The translations under genes were made by a program, and so were the position numbers. This document shows positions 6,201 to 21,771 of a stretch of DNA of 21,795 bases, piece by piece. The DNA is taken from IMG/VR virus record IMGVR_UViG_3300025127_000331, positions 1 to 21,795 of that record; one strand, 5' to 3'. This DNA is from a virus. The notes under the pieces are model-generated. The model was not told the origin of the DNA, did no database searches, and was given only the letters and a program-made list of their open reading frames with translations. The first letter of the stretch is position 1. Each line of letters opens with the position of its first letter.

Positions 6201-6359
6201 GGTGTGATTGCAGATAATATTCAAGAAGTATTACCTGAGATTGTGAGTGGTGAAGACACTAAATCAGTTAATTATAATGGACTCATTGGATTATTAATTG
6301 AAGTTGTAAAAGATCAACAGAAACAAATTGATGAATTGAGAGGTCTTATTGATAAATAA
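1..6359 (+). CDS. Giant tail-fibre/virion adhesin with C-terminal S74 chaperone (5' partial)
   Basis: The reading frame is open at the window edge (first full codon at 3). The first ATG lies inside a 51-base tandem repeat, in the same place as an internal Met of the next copy, so the real start is upstream. Numbering from base 3, 2118 residues are visible. Residues 1-70 are 17-residue Cys-containing repeats of the GNxNIxxGCCAG type. Residues about 68-1900 hold more than a dozen VGIGTxNPxxKLxV units alternating with ERLRIxSNG units, typical of phage fibres built from beta-strand modules. Residues 2030-2118 are a peptidase S74 (endosialidase-type) intramolecular chaperone: SDRRYK supplies Ser2030 and Lys2035 of the Ser-Lys dyad, and a predicted coiled-coil tail (KDQQKQIDELRGLIDK) follows. 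In known S74 proteins the domain assists trimer folding and then cuts itself off just before the Ser, which here would release about 89 residues. The exact place in the virion (long tail fibre, whisker or other) cannot be told. Confidence 0.93.
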   Translation, partial: MGCCTARLMTCGNRNIIMGCCAGHNLTTGNENILIGCGVAAPITDGSSQFAIGNQTDYWITGTSNYNIGIGTTNPSAKLEVRDSSGSGIISRSTTTQTTDTNKAIRVRNNSDTNTFSVSYKGEGYFAGDVGIGTNNPDEKLHVYNGSGNVSSFIESIGGDAVLDMSPSGDGNYSGIIFRRERAGGQTGSIGGAIFMPSNTSNNEAFLYIQAQSATAPGQTGALADNNGVRLKLHGDDGIFSIENGSSESLRIDANRHVTPGASESQDLGAADKRWNTFYVKNINASGGNIVVDTYETNTLKVNGISTFVGNAEFQGNVSIAGTLTYEDVTNIDSIGIITARSGIHVLNGGVGISTTSPTTKLDIITEDHGGTFVKFISHTSSFATGRDLRIIGPEQGDANTPFKIQTHNALSFEIDSTDVLNLSSNYKVGIGKTNPSELLDVAGHIKLDSGPVLENASTISDSLKITTSTGYVEVGSQNASYAHFYTDRNRFYFNRQIIVDTGVIASFNEDLIFRTDQTEERIRIKNDDGHVGIGTTDPSDLLHLYSSSPDIRLQDSDGTSQFSRLAQIGSGLRLQLRDGSNDGHFTIQGYGGGSTTDFVKFNSNGRVGIGTDDVSQRLTVQDSIQLRSASANTVLFFQRTDTNSNAWIGIPHWNDDALYIYGPTSNGNVISAEYSQGDWVFYSGGNQSLRIKDGGSVNIGGGYNQTTDKFQVTGNAKINGNLTVTGVLSYDDVTNIDAIGIITARAGVNITGGGLNVVGVATFANDVIIPDYIKHAGDLTTKFGFPGAGTFAIDTAGTERLRIESGGDVGVGTDNALARLDVCKGTSATDVDIFSVRSKTGAFNIQCSDTDASNPEWRLRTYSNEDIVFSPGGTGSSAEKVRIKSDGKVGIGISHPDSALDVVSSSTDGTSAHIGGAYNDDGQIAVRRIEFGTVNYRNSIQSQQGSGGDNFSSDVDLLLNPSDGRVGIGTDNPDAKLHVIGQVKIDRPGYARVLYARNDANLWSVGLRDTDDFWFFRESGSANAIFPHGKVGIGDTNPQDMLSMRSGANETSLRLVDPSASTYGAHFSFYDSENQVRIGGIFNNDKRAAIIIHRDTASSALVINSSGDTTLGGNLLRAGTGQDIGTNSNRWDKVYANEFIGEINTVQENIITGNLLVTGISTFVGVATFSSIGIGTIPTNFIGNQLVVGDGNGSRGMTIFSDGTTGRILFADGHIGDDRKRGEIKYDHSNNSMQFLCNTEEKVRFRNDGRVGIGTNDPQETLHITSDGNPRILLEDTDASNQVGVRFKTTTQNWIAGLHGGVSRFKISNAAAFGSSDYFVMDTSGRIGVGIDPVEKFHVYGAGNVTSFVEASAGDAVLDLSNTGNGNFSGVNFTRERSSGSVIGGSIFMPSNTANNEAFLYIQAQSASANAGQTGTLADNNGVRLKLHGDDGIFSIETGSEERLRIASDGNVGIGTQSATSLLTLAKSANPTLEFKDYTNNARALITGSAGGQLVFTTDVGNVNANSDFIFRADSNTNEIVRFKDTGEVGIGTDNPTNKFEVFGTDAAVTLLNYGQSSGGLAAWTSGRLAFVSGHQNDDLVFGYSNSTLQVGNFVERMRIDNGTGNVNIGGNYTQTTDKFQVTGNAKINGNLTVTGVLTYDDVTNIDAVGVITARAGINITGGGLNVVGVATFADDVIINADELFVADSIKHIDDTNTSISFPSNDTISFRTSGTERLRIDSNGKVGIGTDLTTTPSSVLTVAPHNSTQGRNISIYTSGAVGNKAGLFFNQSPGAGNLAEIQAEYKGTNEGELVLSTSMQKRITIQKDGKVGIGITDPASGLDIKHNDGIFIKTSSNAPYPNGARIQFTDQTSASQVGFIRYKHPDGRVAPSTNDGFEIGGSETLTAIHLMGRALVQERLGVGNTNPAYTVDLGESSSTIRLVSENNGTAIRVGAGGDSNDITLIRVDGGTTNHDGETNNSAQGFSLKYMGSRSNNNNSFSLFADNQSGTQFEAITVLQDGKVGIKDSTPSYELEVNGTVAATNFDSLSDRRYKTNIQVIDNPIDKVMKIDGVSFDWKETNQPSLGVIADNIQEVLPEIVSGEDTKSVNYNGLIGLLIEVVKDQQKQIDELRGLIDK
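414..760 (+). repeat. About 345-base internal duplication in fibre gene, copy 1
   Basis: This copy encodes EKLHVYNGSGNVSSF through GDDGIFSIENGSSESLRID. It matches 4005-4344 in the same gene along its whole length, including NNEAFLYIQAQSA and LADNNGVRLKLHGDDGIFSIE, with a few small indels. DNA similarity is strongest in the last third, around the stretch reading gctgataataatggtgttcg. Confidence 0.8.
2097..2312 (+). repeat. 216-base internal duplication in fibre gene, copy 1
   Basis: This encodes 72 residues from NIGGGYNQTTDKFQVTGNAK to VGVATFANDVII. By eye about 65 of 72 residues match the copy at 4827-5042 with no gap, while many third codon positions differ. A shorter related block (LTYEDVTNIDSIGIITARSG) lies near 970-1040. 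Confidence 0.88.
4005..4344 (+). repeat. About 340-base internal duplication in fibre gene, copy 2
   Basis: This copy encodes EKFHVYGAGNVTSF through GDDGIFSIETGSEERLRIA, matching 414-760. It keeps the same module order, with a VGIGT-type unit just before it. The divergence is mostly synonymous or conservative, so both copies seem to be under selection. Confidence 0.8.
4827..5042 (+). repeat. 216-base internal duplication in fibre gene, copy 2
   Basis: This encodes NIGGNYTQTTDKFQVTGNAK to VGVATFADDVII, aligned gap-free to 2097-2312. An ERLRIxSxGxVGxGT module follows both copies, so the duplicated unit may extend into more diverged flanks. Confidence 0.88.
6351..6358 (+). promoter_or_regulatory. 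Candidate T4-type late promoter, GATAAATA
   Basis: The word GATAAATA overlaps the stop codon of the upstream fibre gene (TAA at 6357-6359) and ends 35 bases before the next start. T4-like phages use TATAAATA (NATAAATA in cyanophages) as the late promoter recognised by the gp55 sigma factor. The spacing is nearly the same as for the two CATAAATA words near 15300 and 15970. Confidence 0.6.
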
Positions 6360-6393: not shown

Positions 6394-9300
6394 ATGGCAA
6401 TTAAGATATCAGGCTCAACTATCATTGATGATAGTAGAGTCGTAGTAAATGCAGATAAAATAGGTATAGGAGCGGCAAGTCCTAATTTTGATTTAGAGAT
6501 TTTGTCAGGTACTGCCACAGGTATCGCAGTAAGTGCAACAAGCACTCAATCCACTGATACAAATTTAGCATTAAGAGTTTTTAATAATAGCGCAACAGAA
6601 AATTTTAAAGTTAGTTATAGAGGAAGAGTAGACGCAACAGAATATCATGGAGTATTTAAGGGAACCATAGACTCAGGTGTTATTATTGATACTGCAGCTA
6701 ATGCAAATAAGATACAAATTCACCATAATGGAACAAATGTTTTATACAATATTCCGTTCCTTACTGCATCACAGTCTGATGATTCATATCAAGATCTATA
6801 TTATGATAATTCAGACAGTCTTCAATATAATCCTAATACAGGAAGATTAAGAATAAATTCATCAGATGGATTAGATGCTCTTACAATAAGAACAAATGCT
6901 AATACAATCAGTCGTGGATTGGCTTTCCAGAATTCAGGAGATGCATACGTTGGTTATGTTGGAATGGTTGACGCTGGTAACAATACTGCAGACATGGTTT
7001 TTGGAGTTGATGACGCTACTAACTCTGATGTTGATCTTGTTGAAGAAAGAATGCGTATAACAAGAACTGGTAATGTTGGTATTAACAAAACTAATCCCAC
7101 TCATAAACTTGAAATTTTAAATGGATCGGATTCATCAAACATTTTAATGGTATTTGGTGCAGACACCACCACTGAATATGCATCAATGGGAGTGTCTGGG
7201 GGTAATGCTATAATAACTGGTGGTGGAGGTGGTAGCACAAGCACTGGTATAGTTTTCCAAACTTCTCTTAGTGGTACAGAGGGAGAAAAAGTTCGCATCG
7301 ACTCAAATGGTGACGTAGGTATAAGTGTAAACAACCCAACAGAAAAACTTCATGTAAGTGGTAATATCAGATTAACTGGAAATTTTTATCAGAGTGTGCC
7401 AACTGATTTTTGGAATCAAAATACTACATTCATTGAATTGAATGATATCGGTAACTTGACTCATATGGGTGGTTATGAGACTAACTTAACATCAAATGGT
7501 TATCGTGATACAAATGGACAGTGGGTAAGTTATGCAGCAAATAGTAACACTGGTGCAGCACAAATAGGATTAAAACCTCAAGGAACTATTGTATTCAGAA
7601 CCGACGCTTCTAAAGCAAATGGAACTGCACATAACCCAACAACAAGGCTATCAATTGAATCTGATGGTGAAGTGAGAATTGCAGATGGTGGAAAATTAAC
7701 GATTAATTCAAATCCAGCTGCAACTTATGGTGTATCAGAAGTACTCAGAGTTGATGATAGTAACAGCACTGGTGATAGGGCACTTCAAATTTTTGAATAC
7801 CAACATAGTGGTGCAAGATGGTTTTCATTTAATCAAAATTTACATGTAACAACAAACGGATCCGCATACACATATACACAAGGTAATTATGGTGGATCTA
7901 ATATGATCCAAATGGATTCTGGTACTTTGAGAATTTACGCTAATGCCCAAGTTACTGGTGGTTCACAAGATAATATTACACCATCTGAAAAACTTCGCAT
8001 CACATCAGCTGGATCTGTAAATATCGGTGGTGATTATTCACAGACAGGTAAAAAATTAAAAGTAACTGGTGATGCCGAAGTCGATGGAACACTCACTGCA
8101 ACTTCATTCTCTGGACCTTTGACTGGTTCTGCAAGTAAAATTAATGTAACTACCGAAACATCCGACACCACATGTTTCCCAGTCTTTGTGGAAACCCACA
8201 ATACCACTAGTCAAGATCCTCATACTTCAACCTCCCTTGAATACAACTCTTCATCTAAGATTTTAATATCACAAATTTTCCAAACAAGTAATGGTAATGC
8301 AACTAACGTAGCATCGAGAGACAAATATCGACTTTGGAATAGTAATGCGTATGCAATTGGTTTTGATAATGCTATGAGTTTTGGTGGTTTGAATAATTAT
8401 GCCACAACATTCCAGATGAATAATCAAAGTAATCGTGGTTGGGTATTTTTAGATAATGCACATACTGATGCTCAAGGTTCAATGGCTCTTACTACTGATG
8501 GTAAGATGACTGTTGCACATTCACTTCGGATTGGTTTTGGTGAAAGTGATACCACAACACCTGGTGCATCACATCTATTAGATGTTGGAGGTAATGTTCA
8601 AATTGGATCATTAAGCACAGCGGATGCTGAATTGGTAATCGGAAGAGACAATTCTGGAAATCGAAATGCATACATTGATTTTATTGGTGATGACACTTAT
8701 GATGATTATGGACTTCGAATTATTCGCAAAAATAGTGGATCTGACACAGATAGTGAAATTGCTCACAGAGGAACAGGTTCATTAATCATATCCACTTCAG
8801 AAGCAGCTTCAGTTAAGTTAGCAACTCAAGGCACTGAAAAACTTATTGTCGATTCAAATGGTTTAACTACACTTAAAAATTTCAATGGAACAGGTCTTAG
8901 ATTAGAAGGTTCTGGTAGTAATTATCAAGGAATACAGTTAAAAGTAACTGACGCTTCTGCATCACAAACAAGAAATGTATTTATTGATGCTGTAAATGAA
9001 ACTGGTGCTGCGGTTGCAAACCAAGTAGGTGCTGTGCAGGCTGATGGTGGTTCTGCTTGGATTTGGCAGACTCAAGCAACTGGTAACAGAACTGATCGAA
9101 GACAAGAAAGACTTCGCATTAATCCAGATGGAATGTTACTTCCTGGTGGCACCGCACAAGATATTGGTTCGACTAGTCAGAGGTGGCGTGTTGGTTATTT
9201 TAATACAGTAAATGCAACTACCATTACAGGAACATTAAGTGCTGGTGCTGACACTCAGGTTATATTTAATGATGGTGGCAGCGCTCTTGCTGGTGATTCA

Positions 9301-13474: not shown

Positions 13475-13786
13475 ATGAAACTCGAACAAGGAAAATTTTG
13501 TCCCCTAATTGGTAAAGATTGTATTGGTTTACAGTGCTCATGGTTTACCCAAATTAGAGGAAACGATCCTCAAACTGGTAAAGATGTTGATGAATGGGGA
13601 TGTGCAGTTACTTGGATGCCGATATTGTTGATAGAAAATTCACAACAACAAAGACAAACTGGTGCTGCTGTGGAATCATTTCGGAATGAGACTGTTAAAA
13701 TAGGAGAAAAACTTAAAACTGCTCCAAATTTTAACCAAATGACTGGAGTAAAAACTCCTATAAATATTAAACAATTGGATTTATAA
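13475..13786 (+). CDS. Conserved small phage protein with four cysteines, function unknown
   Basis: 103 residues, beginning [17 protein letters not shown] recognise the pattern [22 protein letters not shown]...DEWxCAVxW...[22 protein letters not shown] as a small protein recurring in phages, with no function known to me. Four Cys (9, 16, 21, 43) in the N-terminal half suggest a metal-binding or iron-sulfur site. The C-terminal half is polar and probably helical. The start is supported by AAAGGA at 13464. It lies one base after the second giant gene and one base before the collagen-like gene, so all are probably co-transcribed and co-translated. Its last codons carry a TATAAATA word that may be the promoter for the next gene. 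It could be a virion or assembly accessory protein; that is inference from position. Confidence 0.9.
13759..13766 (+). promoter_or_regulatory. Candidate T4-type late promoter, TATAAATA
   Basis: An exact match to the T4 late promoter word TATAAATA, lying in the 3' end of the 103-residue gene (codons for PINI) and ending 21 bases before the ATG at 13788. Transcription starting about 6 bases downstream would leave a short leader before the collagen-like gene. Confidence 0.6.
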
Positions 13787-13787
13787 T

Positions 13788-14369
13788 ATGGCAATTAAAG
13801 TAAGATCTGGTGGACAGTGGATAGAGGTTGCTGGAGTAGGTCCACAAGGTGCTCAAGGTGCTCAAGGTGCTCAAGGTGCTCAAGGTGCTCAAGGTCCACA
13901 AGGTAATCAAGGTGCTCAAGGTCCACAAGGTAATCAAGGTCCACAAGGTACTCAAGGACCACCAGGACCACCAGGACCAACAGGTTCTTCAGATGTAAGA
14001 TCAATGAACGAGGCTTCTAGTGCTGGTCAATCAAACACTACTAGCAGTGCATACCAAAATAAAGTAACACTTTCAGTTAATACAATATCAACTTCAAGAG
14101 TTATAGTATATTATGGTTTTGAACATTCACATAGTGATGATGATAATAACCAAAGTGTTCAGACACAAATCGTTACCACTAATGGATCTTTTGTAGGTGG
14201 TAATCGATTATTTACGAATAGAAATAGTGCTTATGTTTCTGTACAGGAACAATTGCTTGATATAAGTAGTCATTCTGGTACTAGGACATATGCCATTCAA
14301 TTCAGAAGAACTAGTAATACTGGTAGAATTAGAAACGCTTATCTTTGTGCGATTGAAATGACTGTCTAA
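13788..14369 (+). CDS. Collagen-like phage fibre protein
   Basis: 193 residues. The N-terminal 17 ([17 protein letters not shown]) are a short cap or attachment segment. Residues 18-68 are 17 uninterrupted Gly-X-Y triplets: GPQ, five GAQ, then mixed [24 protein letters not shown]. Residues about 70-193 form a non-repetitive, beta-rich tail with an HSHSDDDNN loop and a close EMTV. Gly-X-Y runs in phage fibres form trimeric collagen triple helices joining globular heads; I infer a short trimeric fibre with the C-terminal domain as head. Gln fills most Y positions; only the two GPP triplets have Pro at Y, the classic hydroxylation position. The stop overlaps the next start (TAATG), and two 2OG-oxygenase genes follow within 1.6 kb. 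The partner it attaches to is not visible. The start is fixed by the abutting upstream stop and a weak TTGGA 10 bases upstream. Confidence 0.92.
13839..13982 (+). repeat. 9-base tandem repeats encoding Gly-X-Y triplets
   Basis: Sixteen 9-base units of the form ggtNNNcaa or ggaccacca. Units 2-6 (13848-13892) are five perfect copies of ggtgctcaa. The rest alternate ggtccacaa and ggtaatcaa and end in three ggacca-type units. Such an array is prone to in-frame gain or loss of triplets. Confidence 0.95.
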
Positions 14370-14938
14370 TGGAATTAAATCCTTTTAACACTGATATAAC
14401 TAATAAAATAAAAATTATTATTCAAGATATTATTCCAAAAATAAAAACAGATGATGAGTTTTGCATAGTCAATGAAAATAATAAAGATTGGCAATATAAT
14501 ACATCTAAAGAATATCTTGATGAAAATAAAAAATTTTTATTAAAAAACAAAGAACCATATACCAATGAATATCTTTTAAGTTTTTATGATGGAACTGGTA
14601 CTTTATTACAAGATCTATTATCTCTAATACAAGACCTTTATCCTAATAAAAAAACAGAAATTAGTGGACATTTTTATTATCCAAAAGAAGGATACATGGG
14701 TTGGCATACAAATTCGGGTAGTCATGGTAAAAGGTTGTATATTACTTATGCGTCTGAAGATAAAAAATCCTTTTTTAGATATTTAAAAGATGGACAAGTA
14801 ATTACTTGTTATGACAATAAAGGAATTACAATTCGTGAATTTGACATACCTGAACCACCAGATTATTTTTGGCATTGTGTAGGTAGTGAATGTGATAGAT
14901 ATAGCTTTGGATTTAAAATACAAAATATAGTTGAATGA
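14369..14938 (+). CDS. 2OG-Fe(II) oxygenase-like phage protein with HxN in place of HxD
   Basis: 189 residues, translationally coupled to the collagen-like gene through TAATG. The N-terminal half is Lys/Asn-rich with no recognisable domain. The C-terminal half has the order of a double-stranded beta-helix 2OG oxygenase: a strand GHFYYPKEGYMGWHTNS, then RLYITYASEDKKSFFRY, then FWHCVGSECDRYSFGFKI. Candidate metal ligands are His113, Asn115 and His169, with Arg177 for the 2-oxoglutarate carboxylate. The usual HxD is HTN here, so one acidic ligand is missing. I recall WHTNS proteins from marine phages with this pattern. Either it binds metal in a variant way or it is a non-catalytic relative. The target is unknown; position suggests the neighbouring collagen-like fibre or another virion protein. 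The fold is inferred from motif order alone. Confidence 0.85.
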   Translation: MELNPFNTDITNKIKIIIQDIIPKIKTDDEFCIVNENNKDWQYNTSKEYLDENKKFLLKNKEPYTNEYLLSFYDGTGTLLQDLLSLIQDLYPNKKTEISGHFYYPKEGYMGWHTNSGSHGKRLYITYASEDKKSFFRYLKDGQVITCYDNKGITIREFDIPEPPDYFWHCVGSECDRYSFGFKIQNIVE

Positions 14939-15289
14939 TTACCAAGGAATCTCTTTATACACATAATTTTCGACAGGTGGATTTAACTTATGATTTATAT
15001 ACTCTATGTTTGCATTTTTTACATCTTCGATATAGGTACTAATACCAACTCCTTGGCAATCTGACCAACTTAAAACTTTACTTTCAGTAAGGTTTGCGTA
15101 AGTCACGAATCCCACAGCAGATGTAACACCCACAGTGTTTAATATTATAGGCACTGAATCAGTCGTTAGTGTATTTACAGGATCAGAACTATCAGAGGAT
15201 GCTACTGAAACAGTTACACTAGATACAACATTGTTACTATCATTGCATATTTGGAGAGCTGTTATACTTACAGTATGTGAAATGCTCAT
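14939..15289 (-). CDS. Small conserved phage protein with LTE..VLxW / NPP..PW pattern, function unknown
   Basis: 116 residues on the minus strand, directly abutting the convergent oxygenase-like gene (stop codons at 14936-14938 and 14939-14941). It begins MSISHTVSITALQICNDSNN, has a Ser/Val/Thr-rich beta-like middle, then VGFVTYANLTESKVLSW and ends NPPVENYVYKEIPW. I recognise this layout (an SxTHxxxI start, a FxPYxxLTExxVLxWV segment, an NPPV...PW end) from small proteins widespread in marine phages, possibly the group catalogued as DUF7936; the function is unknown. The last two residues, Pro-Trp, are typical. A CATAAATA word on the minus strand 32 bases before the ATG is a good late promoter, so it seems to be expressed late as a single gene against the direction of its neighbours. 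An overlapping plus-strand frame at 15135-15317 lacks any such pattern. Confidence 0.85.
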   Translation of the reverse strand: MSISHTVSITALQICNDSNNVVSSVTVSVASSDSSDPVNTLTTDSVPIILNTVGVTSAVGFVTYANLTESKVLSWSDCQGVGISTYIEDVKNANIEYINHKLNPPVENYVYKEIPW

Positions 15290-15309
15290 TTTAATTTTTT
15301 TGTTTTTAC

Positions 15310-15336
15310 TTGACTAAGTGATATTTATGTTATAAT
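15310..15336 (+). promoter_or_regulatory. Possible sigma70-like promoter (TTGACT, 15-base gap, TATAAT)
   Basis: TTGACT at 15310-15315 and a perfect TATAAT at 15331-15336 are separated by 15 bases, slightly shorter than the usual 16-18. If real, it would start transcription near 15343, inside the annotated hydroxylase reading frame, and imply use of the downstream ATG at 15344 or 15359. In AT-rich DNA such matches arise by chance. Confidence 0.3.
15322..15329 (-). promoter_or_regulatory. Candidate late promoter CATAAATA for the minus-strand gene
   Basis: Read on the minus strand the word is CATAAATA, identical to the one at 15970-15977, ending 32 bases before the ATG at 15289. The matching spacing supports the minus-strand gene being real and late. 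Confidence 0.6.
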
Positions 15337-15955
15337 GAGAAAAATGTATTATAGAGACATGAATGATCTAATACAAGTTATAAAAATTCTTAATCAAAAT
15401 GAAGTTCAAGAATTGAATAGTTATATTGATACACTTAAATTTGAAAAAAACACTGTATTTGGTGAGAGTAAAACTGAAAATGCAAGATCTGATCCTAATG
15501 TAAGAACCAGTTCTGGAACTTGTCTTTCAGAGACACATGAACTAACAATAAATTTTCATAATAAAATAAATCAGAGTTTGGACGAATACAAGAGACGTTT
15601 AATTAATATTCATGAAAATTTTCAATACTATCCTGTGCCTGGTGGATATCATACTCATTCTTGGAGAGAGGGTATACAAGTTTTACAATATGAAAAAAAT
15701 CAAGAGTATAAGTTTCATCATGATACCGCTGATCATAAAGAAAGACGGGAATTTTATAGAACAATATCTGTGATCGTTTATTTGACAGATGACTTTAAAG
15801 GTGGTGGAACTTCATTTCCACACACTTCTTTTAAACCAAAATCTGGTTATGCTTTAATATTTCCCTCAAATTGGTGTTATCCTCACGCTGGTGAACCTGT
15901 AACTGAGGGAATTAAAAGGGTTGCTGTGACTTGGTATTATGTAGAGCTAAATTAA
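15335..15955 (+). CDS. Prolyl-4-hydroxylase-type 2OG-Fe(II) oxygenase
   Basis: 206 residues from the first ATG; 15344 and 15359 are other in-frame ATGs, and 15359 (MNDLIQVIKILNQNEV) would suit the family start and the possible promoter better. The family uses 2-oxoglutarate and O2 with Fe(II) to hydroxylate, classically, peptidyl proline. Visible core: YKFHHDTAD gives the HxD metal ligands His128 and Asp130; TISVIVYLTDDFKGGGTSFP is the conserved strand-loop with the GGG/TxFP turn; CYPHAGEPVTEGIKRVAVTWYY gives the distal metal ligand His184 and the 2-oxoglutarate-binding Lys194, ten residues later, as in prolyl 4-hydroxylases. All key residues are present, so it should be active. There is no signal peptide; it would act in the host cytoplasm. 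Neighbours are the collagen-like fibre (1 kb upstream) and giant fibre genes, so a virion protein is the likeliest substrate, by inference. Hydroxylation of a host protein is an alternative. Confidence 0.92.
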   Translation: MRKMYYRDMNDLIQVIKILNQNEVQELNSYIDTLKFEKNTVFGESKTENARSDPNVRTSSGTCLSETHELTINFHNKINQSLDEYKRRLINIHENFQYYPVPGGYHTHSWREGIQVLQYEKNQEYKFHHDTADHKERREFYRTISVIVYLTDDFKGGGTSFPHTSFKPKSGYALIFPSNWCYPHAGEPVTEGIKRVAVTWYYVELN

Positions 15956-15969
15956 GTCAAATTTGAATA

Positions 15970-15977
15970 CATAAATA
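15970..15977 (+). promoter_or_regulatory. Candidate late promoter CATAAATA
   Basis: The word CATAAATA in the 53-base gap between the hydroxylase and the 1920-residue protein ends 31 bases before the ATG at 16009. It is the best-placed late promoter in the window, since it lies fully in intergenic DNA. Confidence 0.65.
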
Positions 15978-16008: not shown

Positions 16009-19000
16009 ATGCCACTGAATAAGTTAGATAATTTCTTAAAAAACGTAGAAGGTCGTATTTTATACGTGAGTCCAAGTGATTTGGATGCCACTGATAGCAT
16101 ATCAAACTCAGGTAATTCTCAAACAGCACCATTTAAGACGGTGCAGAGAGCACTTATTGAAGCAGCCAGATTTTCATATCAAGTAGGTAATAATAATGAT
16201 ATAACAGAAAAAACGACCATACTTTTAATGCCAGGTGATCATCTTATTGACAACAGACCTGGTTTTGCGATCAAAGCAAGCAGTAATATAGCAAAAACTT
16301 TATCACCAGCAGGTGTTGAACAAAACGCATCACAAATTTTAAACCTTGACTTGGAGTCAAATTTTGATTTGACACAAGAAGATAATATACTTTATAAATT
16401 TAATAGTATTCATGGTGGAGTTATCGTTCCTCGTGGAACATCTATCGTGGGACTTGACTTAAGAAAAACGAAAATAAGACCAAAATATGTTCCAAACCCA
16501 ACCAATAATACACCAGAAACAGCAATATTTCGTATAACTGGTGCATGTTATTTTTGGCAGTTCTCAATTTTTGATGGAAAGGATACCGAGTTAGTATATA
16601 CAAATAATTCTAATTTTACTGGTGTTAATCTAAGCAATCCAACATTCTCTCATCACAAGTTAACTTGTTTTGAATACGCAGATGGTGTTAATGTTGATTC
16701 AAGAACTGGATTAACAGATTTAAATATGTATTATCATAAGTTGTCAATAGCTTATGGTACAGGATCATTTAATCGTGACATTACTGATAAGTTTCCAGCA
16801 AGCACTGAGGGATTTGCTTCTCGAAGACCTGAATTTGAAATTGTGGGTGCATTTGCTGCAGATCCAATTAGTATTGTCAAAGCAGAATCTGGTCAAGGAG
16901 GTGCTCCAAGCAATGTAGTGACTGTAACCACTCAAACAGAACATAATTTAGATGTTGGTACTCCGATAAAAATAAGAGGTGTTATTCCACAAGCATATAA
17001 CGTATCATCTAAAGTTACAAGTATAAGTAGCACAAATCCAAAAATATTTACATATTCGTTAGAATCTTTTGATGCTGAATTGGTGACACCCGCATCAAAT
17101 GTTACTGGCGCTACTGTTGTTGTGGAAACTGATACAGTTGGTGGTGCTTCACCATATATTTTCAATATATCGTTGAGATCAGTCTATGGTATGAATGGCA
17201 TGCATGCTGATGGAAGTAAAGCAACTGGTTTCCGATCAATGGTTGTTGCTCAGTTTACTGGTGTTTCACTACAAAAAGATGATAGATCCTTCGTTAAGTA
17301 CGATTCTTCAACAAGAACTTACAATGGATTAGATATTAATGAGGTAACTGGTCAAGAATTATCATCACAATCATCAGCTACTGATCCATCAAAAGTATTT
17401 CATTTAGATTCTAATGCAATATACAGAAGTGGATGGGAGACAAGACATGTAAAAATATCAAATGATTCAATACTACAAATTGTATCAGTGTTTGCCATTG
17501 GTTATAATACACATTTTGAGGCACAGTCAGGTGCTGACGCATCAATCACAAACTCTAACTCAAACTTTGGACAATTAGCACTTGTTTCTGATGGATTTAA
17601 AAAGAATGCTTTCCAAAAAGATGATCGAGCATTTATTACACATATAATTCCTCCAAGAGCAATTACGACAGCAGAGGAAGATATTGATTGGATTTCAATT
17701 GATATGGGTAAAACTGATTCAGTTAATAATAATGCTAGATTATATCTTTTTGGTTTCAGTTCTGAAGATGTCAAACCACCATCAATTACTCAAGGATTTA
17801 GAATTGGTGCAAAGACAGGTGAAGTTCTTAATGTTGATATAAATGGCACCAATCGAACAGCAAATATATTAATGGAACCAAGCAATCAAAATATAAGTAG
17901 TGTAAAGCAATATAATGTTGATGCAGTTGGTGGTAATAACAAAGAAAACACATTTCAATTAAGTGTAAATCATTATTTTTCCACAGGTGAAAAATTAATT
18001 ATCATCAGTGATGATGGAGATTTACCTGAAAACATTGAAGAGAAAACAACTTATTTTGCCATTGTTCCTGAAGGATCTAATACTGAATTTAAGTTAGCAT
18101 CTTCAAAAACAAACGCAGACAATGGTGAATCAATTACTTTAAGTGGGGGAACTAACCTTAAAGTATTAAGTCGTGTCACTGATAAAGAAAGTGGTGACAT
18201 AGGACATCCAGTACAATTTGATCCAGATCAAAATCAGTGGTATGTAAATACTCAATCTAATAGTTCCATATACACAGCATTAACTGGATTGACAGGAAGA
18301 TCTGAACCAACATTTGTTAAGAGAATATCTGATACAAGAAGTTTAGATGAGAAAATTTATAAGTTAAGATTATCAATTCCAAAAGAAATTGCTAACTCCA
18401 AAAATCCTGAAAATGGATTTATAATTCAAGAGTCATCAAATACAGGGGTCAGAACTGACGCAGACTTTATAAAAAAAGATCAGGGAATCACACAAAATTT
18501 AACAAGGGCAGATTTTGATTTTGATCGTAATTTAAGATTTATTAGTTCATGTACTTTTAATACTGCTACAAAAATTGTAACTATTAGAGCAGAAAAACCT
18601 CATAATTTATCAAAAGAGGATGAGGTTACAATAAAAAATGTTACTGATTCTTCAAATCCAGTAGGATCTGCGAGTAGTGGATTTAATGGACAGTATACTG
18701 TAACCGATATAATAAATGATTTAGAGTTTCAGTATTCTACAGGAACTGAAAGTATACCTACATTTGCAACTAACGACTTCAATACAAAAAATAGCACCTT
18801 ACCTAGATTTGAGAGAACTGATTTGAAGTCTAACGTATATCTTTTTAGAAATAATATTATATCTGAATTTATTGAGAGTACTCAGGACGGAACATACCAA
18901 GTCTTTGCTTTAAACTCAAGCAATTACATTCCAACAGAATATACAGGATTAAATTACAGTCAAAATGTCGTCGATCTATATCCACAATTAGATCGTGATA

Positions 19001-21771
19001 ATGTAAATGAAAATCCACAATCATCAAAATCGTTTGCAGTTAGATCTCCGTTAGGACAGGTAGTTACAAATGATCCACTCAAGAGTGTTACTAGAGAGAC
19101 AACTGATAAGTTAATACGTCAGATAGGAATTGGTAAATCCATTTTCCAATTTGCCGATAGTGGTACTACTGGTATAGTTTCATTCACTCAAAACCATAAT
19201 TTAGCAGGAATTGTCACAGCAACTGTTTCAGGTGGATCAGGATACACTAATGGAACTTATGAGAATGTCAAAGTGTTTACAAGTGCTGGCACTCAAAATA
19301 ATACAACTTGGAATGGAACTCTTGCAAAAGTAATAGTAAGTGGGAATTCTGTGACATCTTGTGAGGTAACAAACGCAGGATCTGGTATGTTAGGGCAGGT
19401 CGGACATTTTGATAAGAGTGTCATAGGAAATGGAAATAATGGTAGATTGGGAAGCAATAATGCTGGAGCAGCATTAACCACTGGTAATGTAGGTATATCA
19501 TCTGATTTAGTTATTCAATCATCTGGTATCGGCACAGTTGCAGATAGTTATTTTAGAATTACAGGAGTTGTCGATACAAAGAGAGTATCAATCGTAAAAT
19601 CAAATACAGATGTGAATCCAATACATGGACAATATGGTTTTATTGTTGCACCATCTTCTAAGATAACCTCTATTAGTGTTGTTTCATCTGGAATCGCAAT
19701 CACGACGGATCAACCTCATGGACTTGTTGCTGGAAACAAATTTCAATTAAACAAAGGTAACAATTCATCTGCTGGATCATTTATTGTAAAAGCAAAAACA
19801 AATGCAACATCCTTTGTCATTGATAATACTATTTCATTAGATGACACATTCAATAATGGATTTGTATTGAAACATGGTTTGTCTGCAAATGATGGAGCAT
19901 CTGGAAAAGGTAATGAAAACTTAGGAGTCAGAGGTGTTGAATTATTTGATATTGAACATGGCAAATTAGCATCAAGTATGGAGGGTCCCACAACAAGTGT
20001 TACCTTTGACTTTAGTGGCACAAGTGTTAATTCTGGAAATTTATTATCAAGATTCCCATTTGGATCATATATTCAAATAGATGAGGAGATTATGAGAGTA
20101 TCTTCAAATACTCTTGGATCAGCATCTAATAATCAGTTAACAGTTATTCGAGGTGTGCTTGGAACACTAGTTACAACTCACGTAAACGGATCACTCATTA
20201 AAAAAGTAAAACCATTCCCGATTCAATTTAATAGACCATCGATATTACGTGCGTCAGGTCATACATTTGAATATCTTGGTTATGGTCCAGGTAACTACTC
20301 AACTGCATTGCCACAAGTACAAATTAAAACAATATCAGAGAAGGAAGAATTTTTATCTCAATCTCAGGAAAGAGCTGGTGGTGCTGTAGTTTACACTGGT
20401 ATGAACAACAAGGGTGACTTTTATATTGGAAACCAGAAAAAGTCTGCACTTACTGGTGAAGAAACATCATTTGATACTCCAATACCATCAGTTGCAGGAG
20501 AAGATCCTGGTAGATTGAGTGTAGTATTTGATGAATCTACGATAAAAGATAGAATAGTTGTAGAGGGTGGTAAATCTAAAACAGTTTTGTCAGAGTTTGA
20601 TGGTCCTGTAACATTTAACAATGAAGTACAGTTTAAAGATGCTGTAAAGGTAAAAACAACAACGGATTCCACAAGTTCAACAACGGGAGCACTCGTCATA
20701 TCTGGTGGTGTTGGAATTGCAAAAACTGTTAATTTACCTGATGATACTGCAATAAAATTTGGTAACGGTGGAGATTTAGAAATATATCATAATTCGAGTA
20801 ATAATCATTCTTATATAAGGGAATCAGGATCTGGTGAGTTAAGAATTGGAACTAATCTTTTTAAAGTAAATAATAGTGGTGACACTCAGACTAAGATCAG
20901 TGCTGATTCAACTAATGTAATACTTTTTTCTTCTGATACTGAAAGATTTAAAACCACAAACACAGGAGCTGTCGTAACTGGAATTCTTACTGCAACATCA
21001 TTTAGTGGTGATGGATCAAGTTTAACAGGAATCACAACTAGTGGATTAGTTGATGCTAATGGTGTTACGAGAGTAGTTGCAACTACATCAGGTGCAATCA
21101 TAACTGGAATATTGACAGTTCCACAATTAGATGTTCAAACTCCATCATCATTTACTGGTATAACAACATTTAATGGAGGTGCTTTCTTCCCTGATAATGT
21201 TTCATTAGCATTTGGTGATAGTGATGATACAACAATCACTCATACAACTTCAAATGGAACACAAATCGATCATACTGGAGATGATGACTTAAGATTTAGA
21301 TTAGGTCAGAACCAAATTGTTTTTGAGAAGACAACTGGTCAAAACTTCATGGTGATGACTCATTCATCTGGAGATGTACAGATTGCACATAATGGAAGCA
21401 CTAAATTAAAAACTGTAAGCACAGGTGTGAGAATAGAAGGTTTGTTAGATGTCTCTGGTGACATCATGGCATTTAATACTTCAGACATAAAGTATAAAGA
21501 TAATTTAAATATAATTTCGTCACCTCTAGATAAAGTTGGTATGTTAACAGGTTACACTTATACTTGGAAAGAAAATGCACCAGAATGGTGTTTACCTGGT
21601 ACATTGGATACAGGTGTTATCGCACAAGATGTTGATAAATTGGGATTACCTGGTATTACAACCACAAGGGATGATGGTAATGTCGCTGTTTATTATCCTA
21701 AAATTATCCCAGTGTTGATAGAGGCAATCAAAGAATTGACTGCTAAAGTCAAAGCTCTTGAAAACAAATAA
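16009..21771 (+). CDS. Large virion structural protein with cyanophage-type N-terminus and C-terminal S74 chaperone
   Basis: A complete 1920-residue protein. Its start, MPLNKLDNFLKNVEGRILYVSPSDLDATDSI, followed by PFKTVQRALIEAARFSY and TTILLMPGDHLIDNRPG, is one I recognise from T4-like cyanophage virion proteins; the segment looks like the N-terminal turn of a pectate-lyase-like right-handed beta helix. The middle has several modules with an xHxL..G pattern (TEHNLDVGTPIKIRG near residue 310, KPHNLSKEDEVTIKN near 865, QPHGLVAGNKFQLNK near 1240). Residues about 1555-1824 switch to fibre modules (GGVGIAKTVNLPDDTAIKFG, GILTATSFSGDGSSLTGI). Residues 1825-1920 are an S74 intramolecular chaperone: SDIKYK gives Ser1825 and Lys1830, followed by a coiled-coil end LIEAIKELTAKVKALENK. 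Self-cleavage would release about 96 residues. It is probably a trimeric tail or baseplate appendage; whether the beta helix has enzymatic activity cannot be seen. Confidence 0.93.
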   Translation: MPLNKLDNFLKNVEGRILYVSPSDLDATDSISNSGNSQTAPFKTVQRALIEAARFSYQVGNNNDITEKTTILLMPGDHLIDNRPGFAIKASSNIAKTLSPAGVEQNASQILNLDLESNFDLTQEDNILYKFNSIHGGVIVPRGTSIVGLDLRKTKIRPKYVPNPTNNTPETAIFRITGACYFWQFSIFDGKDTELVYTNNSNFTGVNLSNPTFSHHKLTCFEYADGVNVDSRTGLTDLNMYYHKLSIAYGTGSFNRDITDKFPASTEGFASRRPEFEIVGAFAADPISIVKAESGQGGAPSNVVTVTTQTEHNLDVGTPIKIRGVIPQAYNVSSKVTSISSTNPKIFTYSLESFDAELVTPASNVTGATVVVETDTVGGASPYIFNISLRSVYGMNGMHADGSKATGFRSMVVAQFTGVSLQKDDRSFVKYDSSTRTYNGLDINEVTGQELSSQSSATDPSKVFHLDSNAIYRSGWETRHVKISNDSILQIVSVFAIGYNTHFEAQSGADASITNSNSNFGQLALVSDGFKKNAFQKDDRAFITHIIPPRAITTAEEDIDWISIDMGKTDSVNNNARLYLFGFSSEDVKPPSITQGFRIGAKTGEVLNVDINGTNRTANILMEPSNQNISSVKQYNVDAVGGNNKENTFQLSVNHYFSTGEKLIIISDDGDLPENIEEKTTYFAIVPEGSNTEFKLASSKTNADNGESITLSGGTNLKVLSRVTDKESGDIGHPVQFDPDQNQWYVNTQSNSSIYTALTGLTGRSEPTFVKRISDTRSLDEKIYKLRLSIPKEIANSKNPENGFIIQESSNTGVRTDADFIKKDQGITQNLTRADFDFDRNLRFISSCTFNTATKIVTIRAEKPHNLSKEDEVTIKNVTDSSNPVGSASSGFNGQYTVTDIINDLEFQYSTGTESIPTFATNDFNTKNSTLPRFERTDLKSNVYLFRNNIISEFIESTQDGTYQVFALNSSNYIPTEYTGLNYSQNVVDLYPQLDRDNVNENPQSSKSFAVRSPLGQVVTNDPLKSVTRETTDKLIRQIGIGKSIFQFADSGTTGIVSFTQNHNLAGIVTATVSGGSGYTNGTYENVKVFTSAGTQNNTTWNGTLAKVIVSGNSVTSCEVTNAGSGMLGQVGHFDKSVIGNGNNGRLGSNNAGAALTTGNVGISSDLVIQSSGIGTVADSYFRITGVVDTKRVSIVKSNTDVNPIHGQYGFIVAPSSKITSISVVSSGIAITTDQPHGLVAGNKFQLNKGNNSSAGSFIVKAKTNATSFVIDNTISLDDTFNNGFVLKHGLSANDGASGKGNENLGVRGVELFDIEHGKLASSMEGPTTSVTFDFSGTSVNSGNLLSRFPFGSYIQIDEEIMRVSSNTLGSASNNQLTVIRGVLGTLVTTHVNGSLIKKVKPFPIQFNRPSILRASGHTFEYLGYGPGNYSTALPQVQIKTISEKEEFLSQSQERAGGAVVYTGMNNKGDFYIGNQKKSALTGEETSFDTPIPSVAGEDPGRLSVVFDESTIKDRIVVEGGKSKTVLSEFDGPVTFNNEVQFKDAVKVKTTTDSTSSTTGALVISGGVGIAKTVNLPDDTAIKFGNGGDLEIYHNSSNNHSYIRESGSGELRIGTNLFKVNNSGDTQTKISADSTNVILFSSDTERFKTTNTGAVVTGILTATSFSGDGSSLTGITTSGLVDANGVTRVVATTSGAIITGILTVPQLDVQTPSSFTGITTFNGGAFFPDNVSLAFGDSDDTTITHTTSNGTQIDHTGDDDLRFRLGQNQIVFEKTTGQNFMVMTHSSGDVQIAHNGSTKLKTVSTGVRIEGLLDVSGDIMAFNTSDIKYKDNLNIISSPLDKVGMLTGYTYTWKENAPEWCLPGTLDTGVIAQDVDKLGLPGITTTRDDGNVAVYYPKIIPVLIEAIKELTAKVKALENK

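Follow-up and report, generated by a model that had tools for sequence, protein, structure and literature searches.

A gene of the prolyl 4-hydroxylase (P4H) type is linked specifically, and repeatedly across related phages, to proline-rich collagen-like tail adhesins that carry GPP triplets. This type of enzyme is the one that hardens animal collagen. The window, that is, the whole stretch of DNA analyzed here, is a fragment of 21,795 bases from IMG/VR belonging to a T4-like marine cyanophage; its blastn matches fall mainly in the Kyanoviridae, and the nearest isolate is P-SSM2 (best match). It contains an adhesin, P0001, and an enzyme of this type, P0003. The likely role of P0003, in our view, is that of a collagen prolyl 4-hydroxylase, encoded by the phage and acting on the Gly-X-Pro triplets of adjacent collagen tail adhesins.

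The first-pass annotation had described a gene with 17 Gly-X-Y triplets, a second oxygenase-like gene overlapping it at TAATG and a complete P4H-type gene, and all of these were verified (Table 1). The P0001 stop codon overlaps the P0002 start codon by one base (TAATG, 14367-14371). P0002 and P0003 do not form one co-directional run, because the minus-strand gene P0004 separates them. Upstream of P0001, the octamer TATAAATA is a candidate late promoter, its position being suggestive. The total number of ATAAATA motifs across the window was not above chance, scans of the window for sigma-70-like promoters and terminators gave only chance-level hits, and no tRNA genes were found in it. The P0005 family was detected in 14 clusters of the survey described below, all collagen-bearing (8 enzyme-negative, 6 enzyme-positive and none without collagen).

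Table 1. Position and assignment of the features in the collagen-P4H region of the window.
Feature	Coordinates	Strand	Basis or remark
P0005, small Cys-containing protein	13475..13786	+	ORF directly upstream of collagen gene
TATAAATA octamer, T4-type late-promoter-like	13759..13766	+	22 bp before P0001; predicted from sequence
P0001, collagen-like tail adhesin	13788..14369	+	Pfam Collagen, PHROG tail fibre
Gly-X-Y run, 17 triplets	13839..13991	+	P0001 residues 18-68
GPPGPP cap, sole Y-position prolines, predicted hydroxylation sites	13956..13973	+	sequence; clamps kept in nearest relatives' adhesins
P0002, 2OG-oxygenase-fold protein, HxN...H...R	14369..14938	+	alignment, fold search
P0004, DUF7936 protein	14939..15289	-	Pfam DUF7936 5.1e-7, over cut-off
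P0003, prolyl-4-hydroxylase-type 2OG-Fe(II) oxygenase	15335..15955	+	PF13640; 'PiuC' in P-SSM2
Giant tail fibre with Peptidase_S74 chaperone domain	16009..21771	+	survey anchor; not favoured substrate

P0001 consists of an N-terminal peptide, a collagen stalk and a C-terminal globular domain. It matches Pfam Collagen (PF01391, E 3.7e-9, above cut-off) and a PHROG tail fibre family (1.7e-20), and its neighbours are tail fibres. Thus, it has the Gly-X-Y run flanked by non-collagen domains, within a tail-fibre cluster, that defines a collagen-like phage tail adhesin. The run is single and unbroken, with PAAAAAPNAPNPTPPPS at the X positions and 13 Gln followed by P, P, T and S at the Y positions. 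As the first-pass annotation had noticed, most Y residues are Gln and proline occurs at Y only in the two GPP triplets, which adjoin the C-terminal domain. The N-terminal peptide is common to the adhesins of the nearest relatives, which also contain GPPGPPG clamps, in agreement with the only Y-prolines of the window. The C-terminal domain shares 68% identity with the end of a different tail protein in one surveyed locus (L005), and it had no match among phage isolates. A similar architecture is found in the E. coli prophage protein EPclP, in which a Gly-X-Y stalk links a tail-anchoring part to globular domains, but EPclP has little Pro at Y (PMC3368898). Viruses and most bacteria were stated in the same work to be without collagen prolyl hydroxylases, and accordingly to have little Pro at Y (PMC3368898).

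P0003 is complete and belongs to PF13640 (E 3.3e-16), as do all 50 members of its family. Its start is probably at 15359, because most relatives begin at Met9. The residues H128-x-D130, H184 and K194 are invariant in 50 relatives; the HxD...H triad and the basic 2OG-binding lysine of the P4H family are present, as is its 2OG-Fe(II) double-stranded beta-helix (DSBH) fold. A profile of the 50 phage relatives was compared with solved P4Hs and matched best that of B. anthracis (3.3e-16), followed by those of Chlamydomonas (1.6e-9), PBCV-1 (vCPH, 6e-9) and human (collagen P4H alpha-2, 2.2e-6). A PKHD-type hydroxylase came behind the P4Hs (8.5e-4); by sequence, P0003 is thus closer to P4Hs than to other 2OG oxygenases. 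In structural alignment, the AlphaFold model (pLDDT 91.2) reached Z 20.2 (2.2 A over 172 residues) against Chlamydomonas P4H in complex with (Ser-Pro)5, and Z 18.2 against PBCV-1 vCPH. By family and fold, P0003 is an enzyme of the prolyl 4-hydroxylase type with intact catalytic residues. That it is instead an iron-uptake enzyme of the PiuC/PKHD type, or a general metabolic gene, is very improbable. This reading would fit the 'PiuC' annotation in P-SSM2 and the structural similarity of the model to the PiuC entries 9ghl and 9qn4 (Z 16.8 and 16.4), but the profile is much nearer to P4Hs, P0003 scores 29 bits against the PKHD equivalog NF003974 (cut-off 143), and the gene location and the collagen link also argue against it. 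The P-SSM2 label is probably misleading, since both profile and model favour a P4H even though the PiuC structures share the fold.

A survey of gene co-occurrence, as the first-pass annotation had proposed, was carried out on 281 loci, grouped into 89 dereplicated clusters (95% fibre identity, with at least 4 kb of upstream DNA required). The N-terminal end of the giant fibre, conserved whether or not the enzyme is present, served as the anchor; loci found via the enzyme and isolates were added. The count of Gly-X-Y runs covered the 8 kb upstream of the giant fibre. A cluster was called enzyme-positive when it encoded an enzyme with 40% or more identity to P0003 (26 of 89), and collagen-bearing when it had a run of at least 6 Gly-X-Y triplets. 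At least two GPP triplets were present in 23/26 enzyme-positive and 0/63 enzyme-negative clusters (Fisher p 2e-18, 89 clusters), a comparison in which enzyme-positive loci were partly gathered through the enzyme and enzyme-negative ones through the fibre. Since many enzyme-negative clusters are without any adhesin genes in the interval, the fair comparison is within collagen-bearing clusters, where the proportions were 22/25 and 0/15 (p 2e-8). After dereplication at 80%, they were 5/6 and 0/26 (p 3e-5). Collagen and P4H-type genes are thus linked beyond chance across related phages.

In a tree of 174 fibres, enzyme presence provided 11 independent contrasts, with which GPP agreed in about 6 and disagreed in none (median p 0.03); the tree-aware significance of the GPP link is modest. 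The enzyme was also associated with collagen of any kind, but more weakly than with GPP and not significantly in the independent contrasts. Among adhesins sharing the FPNSP...WNGYAW N-terminal domain, Y-Pro was 29% with the enzyme versus 1.9% without it (p 1e-6), and GPP was found in 16/20 versus 0/10 loci. GC content was rejected as the source of the proline-rich stalks: fibre GC was 34.2 versus 34.1% in the two collagen groups, and in a GC-matched comparison at least 10% Y-Pro was reached in 17/21 with the enzyme and in 0/14 without. A chance neighbourhood or a sampling artefact with no functional link is hardly credible. In its favour, the window has only two Y-prolines, the region is hypervariable, and contigs from IMG/VR are fragments that are related to one another. 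Against it, the association is highly significant after dereplication and persists at 80% identity, among collagen-bearing loci, inside a single adhesin family and across the independent contrasts. For the phage group, this refutes the accidental pairing that the first-pass annotation had envisaged; for the single genome of the window, it does not.

The median share of proline at Y was 30% where the enzyme is present against 2% where it is absent; at X, it was 40% against 2.6%. Because X-Pro climbs together with Y-Pro, the association covers proline-rich collagen, X and Y being not fully separable. Stalks without the enzyme have mostly Glu/Asp at X and Lys at Y. Lys-at-Y collagen was not associated with the enzyme in the survey clusters (6/26 enzyme-positive versus 11/63 enzyme-negative), nor in the tree (contrasts 1.5 vs 1.4). 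These observations bear on the idea that P0003 hydroxylates other stalk residues (Lys, Asn/Asp or X-position Pro), the GPP link being indirect. We regard this as quite unlikely: X-Pro is likewise enriched, Lys-type stalks occur in a few enzyme-positive loci (L092, L247 and L280), and the mimivirus enzyme L230 hydroxylates lysine in collagen (PMC9614988), but Lys at Y shows no association and the closest solved relatives are prolyl hydroxylases.

The correspondence is not perfect in the group. In three enzyme-positive clusters the collagen is of the Lys type and has fewer than two GPP triplets, and one enzyme-negative locus (L203) carries two. In addition, a divergent relative of the enzyme was detected in 7/15 collagen-bearing clusters without the close enzyme, each 0-280 bp from the collagen gene (p 0.03 versus loci without collagen, with a search model that itself included such sequences). 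At a guess, these relatives may be the counterpart for Lys-type stalks.

Outside the survey group, a PF13640 gene immediately follows a GPP collagen gene, or lies one gene further, in two loci (L326 and L339) whose neighbouring genes look unrelated to the group; these loci support the collagen-enzyme link. A scan of viral contigs for the Pro-rich stalk motif returned 41 loci with real runs, only 3 of which have a P4H-like gene in the locus. Among 29 tested viral contigs with GPP collagen, PF13640 was found in 4 and not in 25, absence being weak evidence in such fragments. A universal rule by which GPP collagen needs a P4H was rejected, and the enzyme is not a general requirement for Y-Pro, because GPP stalks are commonly found without a detected PF13640 gene in other viral contigs.

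Another possibility is that P0003 targets a different protein, such as the giant fibre, host EF-Tu or a transcription factor, and merely travels with proline-rich adhesins in an exchangeable tail cassette. In most loci the P0003-type gene lies just before the giant fibre, whose Pro content is slightly higher in enzyme-positive loci (3.86 vs 3.50%, p 0.003), and EF-Tu is a precedent as P4H target (Pseudomonas P4H was solved with EF-Tu and B. anthracis P4H modifies it, according to the titles of entries 4iw3 and 5v7y). However, the giant fibre exists both with and without the enzyme. Moreover, the enzyme stays by the collagen gene when away from the fibre: in two loci (L047 and L247) it is 3.1 and 6.0 kb from the giant fibre, but 194 and 24 bp from the collagen gene. 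Homologous adhesins with Lys-type stalks are mostly without the enzyme, and the independent tree contrasts point the same way. We therefore consider a different target unlikely, and the giant fibre, suggested as a substrate in the first-pass annotation, is disfavoured.

P0002 had been proposed as a third member of a module of fibre and modifying enzymes. Sequence searches with it (Pfam, NCBIfam and PDB sequences) gave no significant match, and only one match was found among phage isolates; in P-SSM2 no homologue was detected. Its AlphaFold model, of moderate confidence (pLDDT 73.6), has the DSBH fold and resembles 2OG-oxygenases of the PHD2 type (best match VIA, Z 13.1). The metal motif is H113-x-N115...H169...R177, and HxN replaces the HxD/E of catalytic 2OG oxygenases in 11/11 aligned members, so that activity is uncertain. 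Of the clusters with a member of the family, 3 are enzyme-positive, 1 is collagen-bearing but enzyme-negative, and 2 have no collagen; in these few cases, no association with P0003 or collagen was found. With this scattered distribution and its Asn metal ligand, P0002 was rejected as a module member. The three-gene module thus shrinks to two partners, the collagen gene and P0003, because P0002 shows no such link.

For the collagen prolyl 4-hydroxylase model, we infer the activity and substrate of P0003, the position and timing of hydroxylation and its stabilising effect. Late in infection, when both genes are presumably co-expressed, P0003, with Fe(II), 2-oxoglutarate and O2, would hydroxylate the Gly-X-Pro proline of nascent neighbouring collagen-like adhesins, before or during trimerisation of the three chains. 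Hydroxyproline would then stabilise the triple-helical stalk. In the window phage, whose stalk is mostly Gly-X-Gln, only the GPPGPP cap by the C-terminal head of P0001 would be modified, and it could act as a clamp nucleating or locking the trimer. The predicted site is the Y-position Pro of GPP clamps, the short-clamp option of the earlier reading. The number of modified prolines would rise to tens in relatives such as P-SSM2. In the P-SSM2 cluster (L001, PSSM2_028-033), collagen fibre, small genes, 'PiuC' (62% identical) and giant fibre follow one another as in the window, but its stalks are longer and Pro-rich, with up to 35 triplets per run and 22-25% Y-Pro in the two main stalk proteins.

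Among eukaryotic viruses, PBCV-1 is already known to encode a prolyl hydroxylase of the collagen type and mimivirus a collagen lysyl hydroxylase (L230); a P4H is also known in B. anthracis. PBCV-1 vCPH (PDB 5c5t) is a virus-encoded, single-domain soluble P4H fold with the same Fe/2OG residues and 25% identity to P0003; it comes from a eukaryotic (algal) virus, whereas the phage gene sits in a tail-adhesin cluster and tracks collagen composition. The B. anthracis enzyme (PDB 3itq, 5hv0, 5v7y) is bacterial and the closest solved relative by sequence, and it hydroxylates collagen-like peptides with a preference for Y (PMC8968730). It is encoded by a bacterial chromosomal gene, whereas the phage enzymes form a family of their own, 32% identical to it over the aligned part. 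Mimivirus L230 is likewise a virus-encoded 2OG oxygenase modifying the virus's own collagen (PMC9614988), but it is a bifunctional lysyl hydroxylase/glucosyltransferase of a eukaryotic virus. In earlier comparative work, the 2OG oxygenases of cyanophages were assigned to 2-oxoglutarate metabolism or to DNA repair (PMC3037559). In 2022, viral P4HA genes (prolyl hydroxylases) were described as abundant in marine viromes, their role being called cryptic (PMC9301287), and Phold found EGLN-like folds to be widespread in marine phages (PMC12774648). The literature searched held no report of a phage P4H tied to the composition of its collagen fibres.

On balance, we lean towards a broader picture in which marine T4-like phages make animal-style hydroxyproline collagen with their own enzyme, while sister phages stabilise homologous stalks by Glu/Asp-Lys charge pairs, some with a divergent enzyme relative beside the collagen gene, and the group switches repeatedly between the two chemistries. 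The link between the enzyme and proline-rich adhesins provides a concrete, testable substrate for a large unexplained class of genes, and growable isolates are available (P-SSM2, S-CAM7 and ACG-2014f). If the model is true, phages would join the makers of hydroxyproline collagen, with a compact bacterial-type P4H that has a natural substrate.

The small Cys-containing protein P0005, encoded just upstream of the collagen-like adhesin P0001, has relatives in 14 dereplicated clusters, all collagen-bearing (14/14), both with and without an enzyme of the prolyl-4-hydroxylase type (P0003). Possible roles are those of an adaptor or a chaperone for the adhesin. Within the window, the gene starts at 6394, 13788, 16009 and 15289 are each preceded, ~20-45 bp upstream and on the matching strand, by an ATAAATA core, a placement like that of T4 late promoters; the total number of such motifs in the window shows no excess over chance.

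On a sister contig (L005), the P0001 head domain (68% identical) ends a different, non-collagen tail protein, and a gene after it shares 91% identity with that of the oxygenase-fold protein P0002. The head and P0002 thus look like an exchangeable unit.

Coordinates of the features.
Feature	Location	Remark
P0005	window 13475-13786
ATAAATA cores	window 6352-6358, 13760-13766, 15971-15977	+ strand
ATAAATA core	window 15322-15328	- strand
P0001-type head and P0002 relative	L005:4564-6172
Extra modifying enzymes	L068:6196-9349; L075:7121-9354; L071:5608-9603	in slot
PF13640 and GPP collagen	L326:7432-8303; L339:1-2912
Glycosyltransferase region, ACG-2014f	L003:6527-8204
Glycosyltransferase region, S-CAM7	L002:5726-8206
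Divergent P0003 relative	L139:7680-8285	28% identical to P0003
Divergent P0003 relative	L198:1125-1748
Divergent P0003 relative	L205	~6 kb ahead of fibre
Divergent P0003 relatives	L168, L250, L216, L233

Further modifying-enzyme genes are inserted between adhesin and enzyme or fibre; across three loci, this slot holds between them PF13759 and JmjC_2 oxygenases, a carbamoyltransferase and an FkbM methyltransferase. In ACG-2014f, a collagen gene is followed by a glycosyltransferase gene overlapping the P0003-type gene, and one likewise lies near in S-CAM7; glycosylation after hydroxylation is conceivable.

Two apparently unrelated phage contigs carry a gene of PF13640, the Pfam family that P0003 matches, immediately 3' of a Pro-rich (GPP) collagen gene (L326) or one gene beyond it (L339). 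Finally, divergent P0003 relatives lie 0-280 bp from Lys-type (Glu/Asp-X, Lys-Y) collagen genes at seven loci, and possibly represent a separate enzyme for Lys-type collagen chemistry.
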